Of a stretch of 41,999 nt of DNA, positions 1,275 through 28,328 are shown one piece after another. The DNA lies in contig PLLE01000041.1 in assembly GCA_003141245.1 (NCBI GenBank), positions 115,338 to 157,336 of the forward strand, in the 5' to 3' direction. The notes beneath the pieces were generated by a model that searched no databases, was not told where the DNA came from, and saw only the letters and a program-made list of their open reading frames with translations. Within the stretch, counting starts at the first letter, position 1, and each line of letters starts with the position of its first letter. Position numbers and translations under genes: made by a program. The stretch is from Chloroflexota bacterium. GTDB lineage: Bacteria > Chloroflexota > Limnocylindria > Limnocylindrales > CSP1-4.

Positions 1275-1351
1275 CGGGGCGTGGCGCAGCCTGGTAGCGC
1301 ACCTGAATGGGGTTCAGGAGGCCGAGCGTTCGAATCGCTCCGCCCCGACCA
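1275..1351 (+). tRNA. tRNA-Pro(GGG)
   Basis: A 77-base cloverleaf. The acceptor strands CGGGGCG and CGCCCCG pair, with A as discriminator and an encoded CCA at 1349-1351. The anticodon stem CCTGA/TCAGG closes the loop ATGGGGT, giving anticodon GGG. The T arm carries GTTCGAATC. It reads proline codon CCC. Confidence 0.95.
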
Positions 1352-8247: not shown

Positions 8248-8323
8248 GCCCCCGTAGCTCAGTGGATAGAGCGCCGCCGTCCTAAGGCGGGCGTCGTCGG
8301 TTCGAGTCCGGCCGGGGGCGCCA
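8248..8323 (+). tRNA. tRNA-Arg(CCT)
   Basis: A 76-base cloverleaf. Acceptor GCCCCCG pairs with CGGGGGC, with G as discriminator and an encoded CCA (8321-8323). Anticodon stem CCGCC/GGCGG closes the loop GTCCTAA, giving anticodon CCT, which reads AGG. The T loop is GTTCGAGTC. Confidence 0.95.
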
Positions 8324-20755: not shown

Positions 20756-20759
20756 ATGA
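20655..20759 (+). CDS. Possible 34-residue upstream ORF
   Basis: It runs from ATG 20655 and ends at IRPPEWEEIA, with its stop overlapping the next start (ATGA). It has no obvious ribosome site and no known domain. It could be a regulatory upstream ORF or chance. Confidence 0.25.
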   Translation: MRVEKTGLTVDVPLSTVAEPAAGKIRPPEWEEIA

Positions 20760-21541
20760 AACGAGCGTCTACTTGGCTCGTTTCGCTATTGATCGCGGGG
20801 TCGACACTCGGCGTCATGCCCCAGACGACGGCGGCCTACAGCGCCCACGTCTGGTCGAACTCCAACGCCTTCGCTGCCACCTGTCTCGGTTTCACCGACA
20901 CATATCCGAAGCAGCACTACGACCTCACGGTCAGCCAGTACGCCAAACTCGGTTTCAGCCCCGTGGGAGGCGCGCTCGGCGCTTCATTCACGCGGACCGC
21001 GTTCCTCGGTAACGTCTTCAACGACTTCGCCGTGTACGTCCACAGTCACGGCGACAACTACTGGGCCAGCTCGGGAGCGCCAAACGTCGACTCGGGGTTC
21101 CTTCAGGATCCCGGCTACCTCGACTGCAACAACTCGAAGGACATGGTCAGGTCCAGCACCATCAAGGCGACCACTCTGGGCACGATCTACAACCTGGTGA
21201 TCATGTCGACCTGCATGCTCGGATCGAATGCGAGCACCATGCCCAACGCCTTCCAGATTCAGAAGACGAAGACGTCGACCAGGCCGGAGTTCTACATCGG
21301 CTACGTGTACCACGCCTGGGACAGCGCGAGCTTTCGGTTCGAGAAGGCTTTCTGGAGCTATATGAATGGCGGAACGCCAGGCTCGCGGACCCTGGCGCAG
21401 GCCTTCGCCTATGCGATGGGCATCGGTGGCTATGAGGCGGTCTCAGCCAGCGAGCCATTCCAGGCCAACTGGTGGGGAAACCCGAACTACGTCGGCACGC
21501 CGACGCTGCCGAGCGTGGGGTGCCCGTCATGCCCGCTGTGA
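20756..21541 (+). CDS. Secreted protein with caspase/CHAT-like His-Cys signature
   Basis: A 261-residue exported protein; the ATG at 20756 follows GGGAGGAG by five bases. The signal peptide is about residues 1-28 and probably cut after TTAA. Residues 88-104 (NDFAVYVHSHGDNYW) give a beta strand ending in His98-Gly. Residues 144-158 (IYNLVIMSTCMLGS) give a second strand ending in Cys153. A strand ending in HG followed about 55 residues later by a strand ending in CxxG is the catalytic pattern of caspase-fold (clan CD) proteases and CHAT domains. A GYV(Y) strand and an FW helix follow, as in that fold. I cannot name the family. Its gene overlaps the next by 13 bases. Confidence 0.6.
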   Translation: MKRASTWLVSLLIAGSTLGVMPQTTAAYSAHVWSNSNAFAATCLGFTDTYPKQHYDLTVSQYAKLGFSPVGGALGASFTRTAFLGNVFNDFAVYVHSHGDNYWASSGAPNVDSGFLQDPGYLDCNNSKDMVRSSTIKATTLGTIYNLVIMSTCMLGSNASTMPNAFQIQKTKTSTRPEFYIGYVYHAWDSASFRFEKAFWSYMNGGTPGSRTLAQAFAYAMGIGGYEAVSASEPFQANWWGNPNYVGTPTLPSVGCPSCPL

Positions 21542-22455
21542 TTTCGCGCACAACGATCAAGTCGGCCATCGGGGCCGGCACCGTGGTCGCTTGCCTCGTC
21601 GTCACGGCGGGGCGAATGATCGCGGTACCCCAGCCATCGGGCGGCTTCGCCCAGACGGCCATAGACGAACCGGCGCGCTTCGAGATGGCGCTCGACGCCA
21701 ATTCCGAGGCCGTCGTCCTGGCACGGGCAGGAAAGACACGCGACGCCCTCGGGTTCCCCGTCGGCGCGCGGCACACGAGCAAGCACGTTCGCGACGGCTT
21801 TGAGCAGGCCGAGTACGACGAGGTCTCCGAGATCGATGCGTCCGGCCGAGTCACATCGGTCACGCAGTTTGATGCCCAGGGGCGGCTTCGCGCCGCCATG
21901 CGGCTGGACAGCGCCCCGCGCGCGGGCCTGAACGTCACGCGCGAGGCGGCGATCCGGTCGGCCCAGCGATCGGCTGTCGCCGCCGGTCTGGCGGTGGACA
22001 CGCCGAACGCCGCGGAGGTGGACGAGGCCAACGGCGGTTGGACGATCCGTTGGGCGCGGCAGCAGGACGGCATCCGTGTCCGAGACGACGAGACGCGTGT
22101 CCACCTCTGGTCCGACGGTCGGATCCAGAGCCTGGCTCGAGTGGAACACGATCTGGCTTCGCCACCCGATCGACGTATCGGCTCGGGCCAGGCCAGGCAA
22201 GCGGTCAGCGCAACCGTCGATCGATGGTTTGCCGGCCGCAACTCGGCCTACACGATCCAGAGCCTTGCCCTCGAGTGGGCTGGACCAAACGGGGCGTTCG
22301 ACCCCGCGAGGGTCACCGACTCTCCGCAGCCCTATCGTCTGGCCTGGGTCGCGAACGTCAAACCGACCGGCGCCGCCGCCAACTACGTCTGGCTGATGAC
22401 CCTGTACGTCGATGCCGGCGATGGGTCGATCATCGGTGGGGACGTAGTGGAGTAG
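21529..22455 (+). CDS. Exported protein of unknown function (PepSY/YpeB-like features)
   Basis: A 308-residue protein from the ATG at 21529, inside the end of the preceding gene. One N-terminal hydrophobic helix (about 8-28) acts as signal or anchor. The rest is alternating strand and helix with repeated TREAAIRSAQ-like and SGQARQAVSA helices, each followed by strands. This resembles PepSY-type modules (about residues 125-200 and 215-305), ending in YVDAGDGSIIGGD, typical for PepSY ends. The resemblance is weak. PepSY domains often inhibit or chaperone secreted proteases, which would suit its position next to the protease-like gene. Confidence 0.5.
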   Translation: MPAVISRTTIKSAIGAGTVVACLVVTAGRMIAVPQPSGGFAQTAIDEPARFEMALDANSEAVVLARAGKTRDALGFPVGARHTSKHVRDGFEQAEYDEVSEIDASGRVTSVTQFDAQGRLRAAMRLDSAPRAGLNVTREAAIRSAQRSAVAAGLAVDTPNAAEVDEANGGWTIRWARQQDGIRVRDDETRVHLWSDGRIQSLARVEHDLASPPDRRIGSGQARQAVSATVDRWFAGRNSAYTIQSLALEWAGPNGAFDPARVTDSPQPYRLAWVANVKPTGAAANYVWLMTLYVDAGDGSIIGGDVVE

Positions 22456-22500
22456 CCAAACCGAGCCCGACGAAAGTTGGTCGGGATCCGGTTCATCAAC

Positions 22501-22528
22501 CCGCGGCCGTCCGCTCGGGCGGCCGCGG
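22501..22528 (+). promoter_or_regulatory. GC-rich hairpin before the lipoprotein gene
   Basis: CCGCGGCCG (22501-22509) pairs perfectly with CGGCCGCGG (22520-22528) around a 10-base loop. No T-tract follows. It lies 23 bases before the next ATG and may attenuate or stabilise the transcript. Confidence 0.45.
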
Positions 22529-22551
22529 GAGATCGCAGAAAGAGAGATCGA

Positions 22552-23586
22552 ATGACCCTCGGCAATCCGGCAGCCGAGCTTGGGCGTCTCGCGAGCCGCC
22601 CAGTGCGAAGATGGATGCTCGCATTCGTGGCAATCTCGGTCGCTTTCACGGGCTGTTCCCTCACGACCAGATCGGGCGACACTCCTTCGTCTCCCGAGCC
22701 ATCCGCGAGCGCGGCTACTTCGGCGACGTTGGGTACCTCGGCTACCTCGGACCCGGTCGGGCCGGCGTCGGACCTTCTCGTTCTGGCCGATGGAATCCAG
22801 GGCGGCGCCGGCTTTTGGATCTACGACGAGAGCACCGGCTGGACGGCCCTCGCTCCGTTGGCGGGGGCAACGGCCCTGGGGCGCGACGGCGACGATCTCA
22901 CGCTGGCTCTCGGCGGTTCGCTCGAGGTCCGGAAGGTCTCCAGCTCCGGGCAAGCCGGCACGCGGCTGCAGGTCTCCTGGCCGGCCCGGGAGTCGGGATC
23001 GGTGGTGGCGGCGAGTCGGTCCCTAACTGGTCGAACGGCGGTCGTTCGAGTTGACGCGAACGAACCGACCTTCCTGCTTGTGGCGGCCGACGGATCGGTC
23101 AGCCTGCTGTCTCCGGCTCCGGCTGGCGCGTTCAGCCCTCTGGTCGCGTGGATCGACGCCGACCGGCTTGTCGCGCTCTCGACCGACGCGGAGCAGATCT
23201 CGCGCCTGGCCGTGATCGACACAGCCGGCCATTCCCTGGCGACGCTGCGCGCCCTGGGAGGCGTCCGCGTTTTCGCCGTCTCGCCCGACCGCGGCTCTCT
23301 GGCCGCGGCCACCGAATCGGCCGTATACGTCGCGCCGGTGTCGGACTGGATCGGCGGCGGCGCGCCCGCGAAGAGCCTGACGCTGGGGTCGTCGGAAGTG
23401 GTCTGGGATCTCGCCCTGGACGCCGACGGCTCCCACCTGGCGATGCTCTCCGGTACCGAGTCGGCGGACGGGAACGTCACGGACGTCCACGAGATCGGCT
23501 ACGCCCGCACCGGGTCGTCGTGGCAGAAGATCTTCGACGCGCCGGTGCCGTTCACGCGCGCAAGCGGGCAGGTCTGGCTCGGCTGA
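22552..23586 (+). CDS. Lipoprotein with beta-propeller-like body
   Basis: A 344-residue protein. An Arg-rich n-region and hydrophobic stretch end in AFTGC, placing the lipidated Cys at residue 35. A Ser/Thr/Ala linker follows (about 38-65). The body consists of repeated short-strand units such as DLLVLADG, RLVALSTD, VRVFAVSPDRGSLAAAT and LDADGSHLAMLSG, suggesting a WD40 or Tol-B-like beta-propeller on the outer face of the membrane. AGAGAG near 22540 may be a weak ribosome site. The function is unknown. Confidence 0.6.
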   Translation: MTLGNPAAELGRLASRPVRRWMLAFVAISVAFTGCSLTTRSGDTPSSPEPSASAATSATLGTSATSDPVGPASDLLVLADGIQGGAGFWIYDESTGWTALAPLAGATALGRDGDDLTLALGGSLEVRKVSSSGQAGTRLQVSWPARESGSVVAASRSLTGRTAVVRVDANEPTFLLVAADGSVSLLSPAPAGAFSPLVAWIDADRLVALSTDAEQISRLAVIDTAGHSLATLRALGGVRVFAVSPDRGSLAAATESAVYVAPVSDWIGGGAPAKSLTLGSSEVVWDLALDADGSHLAMLSGTESADGNVTDVHEIGYARTGSSWQKIFDAPVPFTRASGQVWLG

Positions 23587-24518: not shown

Positions 24519-24595
24519 GGGCGGTTAGCTCAGTTGGTTAGAGCGCATGCTTGACATGCATGAGGCCAGAGGTTCAAGTCCTCTACCGCCCACCA
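24519..24595 (+). tRNA. tRNA-Val(GAC)
   Basis: A 77-base cloverleaf. Acceptor GGGCGGT pairs with ACCGCCC, with A as discriminator and an encoded CCA (24593-24595). Anticodon stem CATGC/GCATG closes TTGACAT, giving anticodon GAC. The T loop is GTTCAAGTC. Confidence 0.95.
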
Positions 24596-24635: not shown

Positions 24636-24890
24636 CGCGATGAGCGGGACACGCCCCGCCGGCAGGATCCAAGAGAGCCGTCGATGTGGTGAAGGCCACG
24701 GCTGAGAGCGACGGCGATCGTCACCGGCGCGGGCACCAACCGTGAGTGGCCGGGGAACCGGTCCGGGATCCGCCCGTGAGAGCGGCACGAGCGCGCGACG
24801 CACGCGGGCAATGGCCCGGTAGACGTCGCGAAGGCGGGTGGAACCGCGAGAGAAGCCTCTCGTCCTGTCGGGCGGGAGGCTTTGTGTTTC
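24636..24890 (+). promoter_or_regulatory. T-box riboswitch of thrS
   Basis: A tRNA-sensing leader that lets transcription pass when uncharged tRNA-Thr accumulates. Seen in order: the stem I base with GATGAGCGGG (24639 onward); the AG-bulge and distal loop (GAGAGCCG, TGGTGAAGGCC, about 24673-24700); a likely specifier ACC (24735-24737); the T-box sequence AAGGCGGGTGGAACCGCG (24831-24848); and a competing terminator. The specifier is assigned from its spacing to the distal loop and agrees with the downstream gene. A possible -10 is CATATT at 24627. Confidence 0.88.
24853..24890 (+). terminator. T-box-controlled terminator of thrS
   Basis: AAGCCTC (24853-24859) pairs with GAGGCTT (24876-24882), extended inward by CGTCC/GGGCG, and is followed by TTGTGTTT. 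It competes with the antiterminator formed by the T-box bulge. Confidence 0.8.
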
Positions 24891-24934
24891 GGCTAACAAT
24901 TGCGGCGCGATGGAACGGAAGGGCGGGCTACGAG

Positions 24935-26797
24935 ATGAGCAAGGACGAGCAGGTTCAGGCGCCGCAGGTCGGCGCACCTCAGGCGGCGGAGTCCGAGGAG
25001 TTCTTCGACGCCGTGGAGCGCGGATCGGTCGAAGAGCTTCTCGACGCCGGCGCTCACTCGGACCTGGACGCGATGCGCCATTCCGCCGCGCACGTGATGG
25101 CCGAGGCGGTGCTGGGGATCTTCCCGGGCGCGCAGCTCGGGATCGGCCCGTCGATCGACGACGGCTTCTACTACGACTTCCTGCTGCCTCGCCCGCTCAC
25201 GCCCGACGATCTGGCCGCCATCGAGGCCGCCATGCGCGCCTCCATCGCCGCGGACCATCGATTCGTCCGCAAGGAAGTCCCGTTCGCCGACGGTCGGGCC
25301 TTCTTCGAGGGTCGCAACCAGCCATTCAAGGTCGAGATCCTGGACGATCTGGCGGCCCGCGCCGCGGCGTCCGGCACCGCGCTTCCGCCCACCTCGACCT
25401 ACGAACACGGCCCGTTCATCGACCTGTGCAAGGGTCCGCATGTCGCCAGCACCGGCAAGATCGGCGCGTTCAAGCTGCTCGCGATCGCCGGCGCGTACTG
25501 GCGCGGTGACGCGAAGCGCCCGATGCTCCAGCGAATCTACGGCACCGTCTGGCCCACGCAGGAGGAGCTGGATCAATACCTCTGGCGTCGGGAGCAGGCC
25601 AAGCTGCGCGACCACCGCCGCCTCGGCGTCCAGCTCGACCTGTTCAGCTTCCACGACGTCTCGCCCGGCGCCGCCTTCTGGCATCCCAAGGGCTGGACCC
25701 TCTACCGGACCCTCGAGAACGCCATGCGCGAGCTCCAGGCGCGGCGGGGCTACCAGGAGATCTACACCCCGCCGCTCGTGCATCGAAAGCTCTGGGAACA
25801 GTCCGGTCACTGGGACCTCTACCGCGAGCACATGTTCCTGATCGAGGCCGAAGACGAGACGTTCAGCCTCAAGCCGATGAACTGCCCCGAGTCGACCTAC
25901 ATCTACCGCAGCCGGGTGCGCTCGTATCGAGAGCTGCCGCTGCGGCTGTCCGAGTACGGCAAGCTCCACCGCAACGAGCTGTCGGGAACGCTGTCGGGCT
26001 TGACCCGCGTCCGGCATTTCGTGACGGACGATGCCCACATCTACGTCCGCCCCGATCAGATCGGCTCCGAGATCGAGGCGCTCCTCGGCGAGGTCCGCGA
26101 AGCCTACTCGTGGGTGGGCCTCACGCCGAGCTTCACGTTCGGGACGCGACCGGACAAGGTGCTCGGCGACCTGGCGCTGTGGGACAAAGCCGAGGGGATG
26201 ATCCGGGAGGCCCTCGATAGTTCGGGCGTCGCCTACCGGATCAAGGAGAAGGACGGCGCGTTCTACGCCCCCAAGATCGACATCCAGGTCGAGGATGCCC
26301 TCGGTCGCGAATGGCAGACCGCGACGATCCAGGTCGACCTCGTCATGCTGCCCGAGCGGTTCGACCTGTACTATATCGACGAGGATGGGACCCAGCAGCG
26401 ACCGGTCGCCATCCATCGAGCGATCTACGGCTCGCTGGAGCGGTTCATCGGGGTGATCACCGAGCACTTTGCCGGAGCATTCCCGGTCTGGCTGGCGCCG
26501 GTCCAGGCGGTGCTCATCCCGATCGCCGATCGCCATCTGCCGGCGGCCGAGGAGCTGGCCGGGCTGTTGCGTGGCCGCGGTCTCCGGATCGAGGTGGACG
26601 GCTCCGACAACCGGATGCAGAACAAGATCCGCCTCGCCCAGGGTCAGAAAGTGCCGTACATGCTCGTCCTCGGCGACCGGGAGGTCGAGGGACGGTCGGT
26701 CGCGATCCGCAATCGCGCCGGCGAGCAGGAGAACGGCATCGGCTGGGACGCCTTCGTCGAGCGACTGGCGCAGGAGACCGCGGCGCGCAAACCGTAG
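24935..26797 (+). CDS. thrS: Threonyl-tRNA synthetase lacking the TGS domain
   Basis: A class II synthetase of 620 residues from the ATG at 24935; the frame runs further upstream only through the T-box leader. The editing domain begins with HSAAH (49-53) and includes Cys165 in LCKGPH. The catalytic zinc ligands are Cys317 (MNCP), His368 (DDAHI) and His494 (AIHRAI), each exactly 17 lower than in E. coli. The C-terminal anticodon-binding domain starts near residue 520. Only about 48 residues precede HSAAH and none resemble TGS, which in E. coli is the first 62 residues. Confidence 0.95.
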   Translation: MSKDEQVQAPQVGAPQAAESEEFFDAVERGSVEELLDAGAHSDLDAMRHSAAHVMAEAVLGIFPGAQLGIGPSIDDGFYYDFLLPRPLTPDDLAAIEAAMRASIAADHRFVRKEVPFADGRAFFEGRNQPFKVEILDDLAARAAASGTALPPTSTYEHGPFIDLCKGPHVASTGKIGAFKLLAIAGAYWRGDAKRPMLQRIYGTVWPTQEELDQYLWRREQAKLRDHRRLGVQLDLFSFHDVSPGAAFWHPKGWTLYRTLENAMRELQARRGYQEIYTPPLVHRKLWEQSGHWDLYREHMFLIEAEDETFSLKPMNCPESTYIYRSRVRSYRELPLRLSEYGKLHRNELSGTLSGLTRVRHFVTDDAHIYVRPDQIGSEIEALLGEVREAYSWVGLTPSFTFGTRPDKVLGDLALWDKAEGMIREALDSSGVAYRIKEKDGAFYAPKIDIQVEDALGREWQTATIQVDLVMLPERFDLYYIDEDGTQQRPVAIHRAIYGSLERFIGVITEHFAGAFPVWLAPVQAVLIPIADRHLPAAEELAGLLRGRGLRIEVDGSDNRMQNKIRLAQGQKVPYMLVLGDREVEGRSVAIRNRAGEQENGIGWDAFVERLAQETAARKP

Positions 26798-27535: not shown

Positions 27536-27638
27536 GCGACCGCCCAGCGCTGCTGTGCGCGGGGTTGGGCCGCTCGTCTGCTTTCGGGCAGGTCACCCCG
27601 GCAGCAGGCAACCGGAACACGCAAAGAAGGGGTTCGCC
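27536..27638 (+). promoter_or_regulatory. Structured 5' leader of infC
   Basis: About 100 bases of untranslated RNA. CGGGGT (27560-27565) can pair with ACCCCG (27595-27600), enclosing CTGC/GCAG (27578-27591) with a UUCG-type loop. In many bacteria L20 or IF3 controls this operon through its leader, so an autoregulatory RNA is plausible. The ribosome site AAGAAGGGG follows. Confidence 0.45.
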
Positions 27639-28328
27639 ATTAGCCGAGACCTGCGCATCAACCAGATGATCCGCGTGTTCGACGTGCGGGTTGTCGACGA
27701 AGACGGTAGCCAGCTTGGCGTCATGCGAACAACCGACGCCTTGAGGCTTGCGCAGGAGCGGGGGCTCGACCTGGTGGAGGTCGCACCGCTGGCCAGTCCC
27801 CCCGTGGCGCGACTCCTCGATTTCGGTCAGTACAAGTACGAACTGACCAAGCGCGAGAAGGAAGCCAAGCGCCGACAGAAGTCCGTAACCTTCAAGGAAG
27901 TCCGCCTCAAGCCGAAGATCGGCATCGGCGACTTCGATACCAAGGTCCGGCGGGCAGTCGAATTCCTGGAGGAGGGCGACCGAGTAAAGGTTTCCGTCCA
28001 GTTCCGCGGACGCGAGCTAACTCACCCTCAGATCGGACGCGATCTGCTCGACAAGTTTGCGGAACAGATCAAAGAACACGGCGTGGTCGAGCGGCTTCCG
28101 CTGCTCGAAGGCAAGTCGATGCATATCAGCGTTGCATCGGTCCACAAGCCTAAGTCGCACGAGCCGACACCGGCCGCCGCGGCGAAGGGTCAGGCCAGAG
28201 CAGACGAAGACGCGGCGGCCGTCATGGACGCCGAAGTGGCAACAGATAGCGTGGAGACCCCGGCCATTCCGGAGGCTCCCGGACCCGAGCCGGACGACGG
28301 CGCGGCGTCAACTGGGAAGGTGAACTGA
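27639..28328 (+). CDS. infC: Translation initiation factor IF-3 with AUU start
   Basis: IF-3 keeps ribosomal subunits apart and checks the start codon. No ATG, GTG or TTG stands at the expected place. Instead ATT at 27639 follows AAGAAGGGG by six bases and gives the conserved beginning SRDLRINQMIR. Rare AUU or AUC starts on infC are the classical basis of its autoregulation. The 229-residue product has the N-terminal domain (to about 75), a Lys-rich linker (KREKEAKRRQK) and the C-terminal domain ending near 165. An acidic, disordered tail of about 60 residues is longer than usual. Confidence 0.93.
   Translation: MSRDLRINQMIRVFDVRVVDEDGSQLGVMRTTDALRLAQERGLDLVEVAPLASPPVARLLDFGQYKYELTKREKEAKRRQKSVTFKEVRLKPKIGIGDFDTKVRRAVEFLEEGDRVKVSVQFRGRELTHPQIGRDLLDKFAEQIKEHGVVERLPLLEGKSMHISVASVHKPKSHEPTPAAAAKGQARADEDAAAVMDAEVATDSVETPAIPEAPGPEPDDGAASTGKVN

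Follow-up and report, generated by a model that had tools for sequence, protein, structure and literature searches.

What does a small exported protein of an uncultivated Chloroflexota bacterium do with an invariant histidine and an invariant cysteine, and what might control it? The protein, referred to here as CYS, is encoded within the window, which is the whole stretch of 41,999 nucleotides that was analysed and has a G+C content of 68.4%. An earlier note, made from the letters of the sequence, had described a secreted protein in which a strand ending in SHG and a later strand ending in TCMLG supply the His-Cys dyad of a clan CD protease, and had suggested a new extracellular enzyme of the caspase fold. 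The reading frame, its coordinates and both motifs are confirmed by translation, which reads MKRASTWLVSLLIAGSTLG...TTAAY and places SHG at residues 97-99 and STCMLG at residues 151-156 (Table 1).

Table 1. Positions of the CYS gene, its neighbours and other features, numbered from the first letter of the window.
Feature	Position	Strand	Description
tRNA-Pro(ggg)	1275-1351		
tRNA-Arg(cct)	8248-8323		
CYS	20756..21541	+	Candidate exported cysteine peptidase of clan CD, CHAT-like; 261 aa
CYS signal peptide	20756..20836	+	Probably of the Sec type, assigned by eye (MKRASTWLVSLLIAGSTLG...TTAA)
CYS His98 codon	21047-21049		Putative catalytic codon
CYS Cys153 codon	21212-21214		Putative catalytic codon
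DN1	21529..22455	+	Secreted or membrane-anchored, 308 aa, FTP-PepSY propeptide homologue
DN2	22477..23586	+	Probable lipoprotein, possibly a beta-propeller
tRNA-Val(gac)	24519-24595		
Threonyl-tRNA synthetase gene	24746-26797		Downstream of the CYS-DN1 cassette
infC	27555-28328		Downstream of the CYS-DN1 cassette

The ATG of CYS at 20756 is preceded on its 5' side by a GGAGGAG stretch, and a scan for promoters and terminators gave nothing exceeding shuffled sequences. The N-terminal hydrophobic segment is retained among relatives. In six pairwise comparisons with genus-level relatives, dN is 0.18-0.24 against a dS of 0.79-1.14, from which it follows that CYS is under purifying selection. No prodomain of its own is evident in the protein, and its residues C43 and C124, in view of its export, are predicted to form a possible disulfide. 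A PADLOC search of five proteins gave no defence match.

The relatives of CYS comprise 48 distinct sequences, and conservation was counted over the 43 that are longer than 225 aa, with the five shorter rows excluded. The earlier note had proposed an alignment of homologues as a check on the dyad, and in the present alignment His98 and Cys153, together with Gly99 and Ser151, do not vary in any of the 43 members, even at an identity with the query as low as 34%. Further invariant residues are N35, F39, C43, G66, F78, Y94, D118 and C124, followed on the C-terminal side by F179, Y183, F195, E196, W239 and G241. Among the five short rows, His98 is retained in four; the fifth represents part of a gene that is divided between two frames. 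The cysteine is retained in all three that reach Cys153. Two copies of the gene are apparently broken, one being split over two frames (L077, G041:C59) and the other carrying one internal stop (L080, G094:C21) in a genome that also has a second copy.

All of the CYS matches fall within two families, f1 and f2, of a single Chloroflexota order. The family was matched in 36 of 61 near genomes, in 51 of 177 class genomes and in 18 of 400 genomes sampled across the phylum. When 84,980 species were scanned at the genome level with a pattern-based search, 12 loci emerged, made up of 11 relatives in metagenome-assembled genomes named 'Chloroflexi' and one locus of the Acidobacteria (L013); the latter was discarded as chance because it is a match of only 19 residues and neither family profile matches anything there. 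The viral contigs, phages and plasmids that were searched contain no relatives, so by these searches CYS is not a phage or plasmid gene. The genomes of f1 are mostly 2.0-3.8 Mb in size and those of f2 are 0.8-1.2 Mb. Among 19 genomes near 1 Mb in size that were sampled from this small-genome family, several of them incomplete, 13 carry the gene, and its presence there suggests a useful function in the envelope.

No curated family claims CYS. The protein of the window has no match in Pfam or NCBIfam, and when the 43 members were scanned against Pfam, the peptidase family C25 was matched in five (best E 9e-4) and CHAT in four (best E 2.7e-3), in each case weakly. The Pfam and NCBIfam E-values are uncorrected for the scanning of 43 members, and unrelated families give similar values in single members, namely TY-Chap3 in Pfam (2.2e-3) and AphA in NCBIfam (9.9e-3). 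The four CHAT (PF12770) matches cover the His-Cys region and score 17.6, 16.1, 13.1 and 12.4 bits, where the Pfam cut-off is 24. Bit scores were read from 30 members scanned singly; four of the five C25 (PF01364) matches were read in this way and score 13.2-16.6 against a cut-off of 23, the best C25 member (E 9e-4) lying outside those 30. The metacaspase family C14 (PF00656) is absent among the Pfam families listed for the 43 members. Sequence matches in the PDB all have E-values above 0.04 and are given no weight here; the top match there for a profile built from the 43 rows is a CHAT protein, 8tl0, with an E-value of 0.22.

Profile-profile comparison points to a relationship with clan CD, and most closely with CHAT. 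Alignments for comparison were drawn from Chloroflexota genomes and hold 26 sequences for CHAT, 23 for C14, 28 for C25, 18 for C11 and 22 for response regulators. Against the CHAT profile CYS scores 33.4 over 157 columns, a value reached by none of 199 column shuffles (maximum 21.8) and none of 200 block shuffles (maximum 30.4), and six unrelated families from neighbouring genes of the window score 13.0-15.6 against the same profile. As a yardstick within the clan, CHAT and C14 score 71.5 with each other, CHAT and C25 38.5, and C14 and C25 21.8. In the alignment His98 falls on the CHAT histidine column and Cys153 on the CHAT cysteine column (24 of 26 sequences each), and the two residues likewise fall on the histidine and cysteine columns of C14 (23 of 23 each). 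When His98 and Cys153 are masked, the CHAT score falls to 24.0, with the cysteine register kept and the histidine register off by two, and when seven residues are masked round each of them it falls to 19.6. The CHAT signal is of modest strength and owes much to the catalytic columns. The score against C14 is 24.9, which lies inside the block shuffles (maximum 30.8), and drops to a background level of 13.6 on masking; that against C25 is 17.7, which 16 of 199 column shuffles reach; that against the clostripain family C11 (PF03415) is 15.6 over 17 columns, again background; and the response-regulator control gives 22.6 over 33 columns.

Taken together, the profile scores, shuffles and masking suggest that CYS is probably the representative of a new clan CD family that is nearest to CHAT and belongs to none of CHAT, C14, C25 or C11. 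Membership of CHAT itself was rejected on the Pfam bit scores (12.4-17.6, all under 24), that of C14 on the lack of a listed Pfam match and on the masked profile score, that of C25 on a profile score within the shuffles and on Pfam bits under 23 for the four matches read, and that of C11 on its short, low-scoring alignment. The view of the earlier note that CYS resembles neither the gingipains nor clostripain proves broadly right, with the C25 score inside the shuffles and the C11 score at background.

AlphaFold models of CYS are of low confidence, with a pLDDT of 30 from one sequence and a pLDDT of 41 and pTM of 0.45 from 12 sequences. In the 12-sequence model (pLDDT 41), His98 directly follows a strand at residues 91-97, and Cys153 comes shortly after another at 146-151, an arrangement that would be expected of clan CD and is only suggestive. 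Foldseek with this low-confidence model gave best E-values of 0.47 in the PDB and 1.1 in BFVD, with no caspase-fold match among the 50 listed for each. The earlier assignment to clan CD is partly supported, by the invariant dyad and, to some extent, by the register with the CHAT profile and the weak Pfam matches to C25 and CHAT; the predicted fold is of too low confidence to speak for or against it.

A constant downstream partner, DN1, which the earlier note does not mention, accompanies CYS. The reading frames of CYS and DN1 share 13 nt, which include the CYS stop, so that DN1 has its ATG inside the end of CYS (ATGCCCGCTGTGA). DN1 is present at every CYS locus examined except three that are cut by contig ends (L078, L080 and L081), and the pair is constant though its surroundings differ between genera. 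In the 177 class genomes, DN1 lies directly downstream and on the same strand at 51 of 56 CYS matches, and each of the remaining five is either a fragment or close to the end of a contig. Two of these are at contig ends (G040 C201 and G026 C22); one, with the internal stop, is on a fetched sequence that stops 379 nt further on (G094 C21); one is the other part of a gene that the count already includes (G041 C59); and one is an N-terminal piece (G046 C132), the other half of which, with DN1, is probably found at the start of contig C37. By genome, 50 of the 177 have both genes, one has CYS only (G040), four have DN1 only and 122 have neither, giving a Fisher P of 4e-38, a figure that ignores kinship. 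Among the four with DN1 only, two have their match near contig starts and two have weak or partial matches.

In Pfam, FTP was matched in 11 of 39 DN1 members and PepSY in two of 39, both weakly (best E 6.2e-3 each), and the DN1 of the window scores 15.0 bits for FTP, under the cut-off of 21. Alignment with hhalign to 24 Chloroflexota FTP-PepSY propeptides gives a score of 70.1 (P 1.4e-9) over 158 columns that span both modules; none of 199 shuffles reaches it (maximum 20.7), and control profiles of CHAT, C14, C25 and response regulators score 10.5-14.8. A search of the PDB with the DN1 profile returned no propeptide match. On profile alignment DN1 is a homologue of the FTP-PepSY propeptide of the thermolysin-like metalloproteases. 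Eleven genomes also have DN1-like matches away from CYS, in addition to two pieces at contig starts, and the nine of these stand-alone neighbourhoods that were fetched contain no CYS gene; the FTP-PepSY module is thus not exclusive to CYS. Stand-alone DN1-like proteins of the PepSY type (L264-L268, for example L266:3802-4719) have lipobox-like starts in several cases, and their gene surroundings are partly common to several genomes of the genus. Within f2, all 10 DN1 proteins of alignment A3 themselves carry a lipobox-like motif.

A gene comparable to DN2, the third of the window's cassette, comes after DN1 in many loci of the same family, and it often encodes a lipoprotein. The product of DN2 is poorly recognized by Pfam, has a weak WD40-like signal and is conserved in the genus at 42-50% identity to four aligned relatives. 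Over 21 long loci (18 from f1 and three from f2, with one genome counted twice as L305 and L012), a same-strand reading frame 3' of DN1 overlaps it by 4 nt in nine, and in 13 the beginning of this frame shows a lipobox-like motif. Ten of the third-gene proteins were aligned, and in all of them the cysteine at the lipobox position (Cys60) is invariant. Only one third-gene protein (L307) has the beta-propeller repeat PD40 above the Pfam cut-off, and none of the three f2 loci showed such a gene after DN1. At L305, L306 and L308-L310, which come from other genera and from the small-genome family, the genes near the pair include those for phosphomannomutase/phosphoglucomutase and for an ABC transporter of the FecCD type together with a Peripla_BP_2 binding protein.

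Several other accounts of CYS have to be weighed. That the clan CD similarity is a matter of chance, with two motifs occurring in an unrelated secreted protein, would fit the strong dependence of the CHAT score on the catalytic columns, the lack of any threshold-level family match among those read for CYS and the appearance of TY-Chap3 at 2.2e-3 in one member; but the CHAT score exceeds every one of its 199 and 200 shuffled controls, the weak Pfam matches go to two families of clan CD, C25 and CHAT, over the His-Cys region, and the neighbouring gene encodes a homologue of a peptidase propeptide, so that we regard chance as quite improbable. CYS might instead have another fold in which histidine precedes cysteine, such as that of a sortase-like transpeptidase or a different thiol enzyme. 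Sortases are exported proteins with a histidine some 60 residues before the cysteine and a T-x-T-C motif, and they need an arginine after the cysteine. CYS resembles them in its export and in the order of its two residues, and its own fold, modelled at a pLDDT of 41, is not established; yet sortase is absent among the 13 Pfam families listed for the 43 members at E-values up to 5, and no arginine is invariant or nearly so in their alignment. With the sortases set aside by Pfam and by the arginine pattern, and with a CHAT similarity above all column and block shuffles, this account is improbable. The order of histidine and then cysteine also argues against papain-like and NlpC/P60 enzymes. It is more improbable still that CYS has the clan CD fold and is a binding module without peptidase activity, its dyad being kept for some other reason: pseudo-variants are known among the prokaryotic caspase homologues, but those described in PMC6426788 have lost dyad residues, whereas the dyad of CYS is invariant in 43 of 43.

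A further account accepts CYS as an active clan CD peptidase and differs over its partners, DN1 serving CYS as substrate, as surface tether or as a factor in assembly, and DN2 completing a three-part complex at the envelope. Gene linkage alone is silent on the sense of any interaction between CYS and DN1, and tethering is made plausible by the lipobox-like motif in all ten aligned f2 members of DN1 and by the invariant Cys60 of the third-gene product, a probable lipoprotein. Yet the homology of DN1 to FTP-PepSY propeptides is specific and spans both modules, and according to PMC5078317 the FTP module prevents premature activation of the protease and PepSY is likely to be inhibitory. We therefore hold this account to be unlikely, though it is the most credible of those set against our own.

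The reading that we favour, with moderate confidence, is that CYS is a secreted His/Cys peptidase of clan CD, nearest to CHAT, which is held and folded in trans by DN1. Both proteins would be exported, with DN1 acting as a free-standing propeptide of the thermolysin type that comprises FTP and PepSY modules. In trans, DN1 would serve as both chaperone and inhibitor, assisting CYS to fold and blocking its cleft, and the peptidase would be kept inactive at the envelope until DN1 was removed or cleaved, as may be compared with YpeB and SleB. The complex could be anchored by either DN1 or DN2, and loss or cleavage of DN1 would release CYS. The peptidase might then act in nutrient proteolysis, in the maturation of envelope proteins or in attack on neighbours. 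Of this reading, the linked gene pair, the unvarying dyad and the homology of DN1 are established by the sequence comparisons, and the fold and proteolytic activity of CYS, its binding and inhibition by DN1 and the disulfide are inferred.

The broader claim, that two Chloroflexota families harbor clan CD peptidases of a new secreted family and that a propeptide of the thermolysin type controls them in trans, is put forward more tentatively, at somewhat less than an even chance. If true, it would mean that a regulator module of metalloproteases has been co-opted by a caspase-type peptidase and kept with it as a translationally coupled pair, retained in uncultivated Chloroflexota including a genome-reduced family. 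It would bring the caspase clan together with a propeptide, FTP-PepSY, that is known from secreted metalloproteases, two fields of peptidase biology that usually stay separate, and would lend support to the proposal that PepSY regulates extracellular peptidases (Yeats et al. 2004, as cited in PMC5078317). The pair is also directly expressible. In the literature outside subscription papers and preprints, no pair of PepSY and a caspase-type peptidase is described among the matches listed, as far as their available text goes, and searches of the same scope for a secreted caspase-like CHAT protein with PepSY, or for Limnocylindria peptidases, found nothing.

Among known systems, the CHAT proteins (PF12770), such as Csx29/TPR-CHAT, come closest to CYS, giving the best profile score with histidine and cysteine in register and sharing a D....F..aF...l..G helix after the cysteine strand. 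The activity of Csx29 requires H615 and C658 (PMC10028731). CYS is unlike CHAT in its length of 261 aa, its export, its FTP-PepSY partner, its additional invariant pair of cysteines and its C-terminal W-W-G, and no TPR or sensor domain is seen in it. The C25 gingipains (PF01364) are exported clan CD peptidases, to which CYS is linked by the weak Pfam matches in five of 43 members and from which it differs in a profile score within the shuffles. The metacaspases and orthocaspases of C14 (PF00656) share the dyad columns, 23 of 23 each, and differ in that their score with CYS is not above block shuffles and is background once the dyad is masked. As a pair, CYS and DN1 recall staphopain and staphostatin, a secreted cysteine protease and its operon-encoded specific inhibitor, although staphopain is of the papain type and staphostatin is a cytoplasmic inhibitor of another fold. 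In the thermolysin-type M4 enzymes, the FTP-PepSY propeptide is fused to the metallopeptidase (PMC5078317); both of its modules align with DN1, but DN1 is a protein in its own right, and its neighbour is a His/Cys enzyme. SleB-YpeB of Bacillus is similar in its arrangement: there the gene for an enzyme and that for a PepSY protein likewise form a conserved operon, SleB is inhibited by YpeB in vitro and the two proteins depend on one another for stability (PMC6660665); SleB, unlike CYS, is a spore-specific, cortex-lytic enzyme rather than a peptidase.
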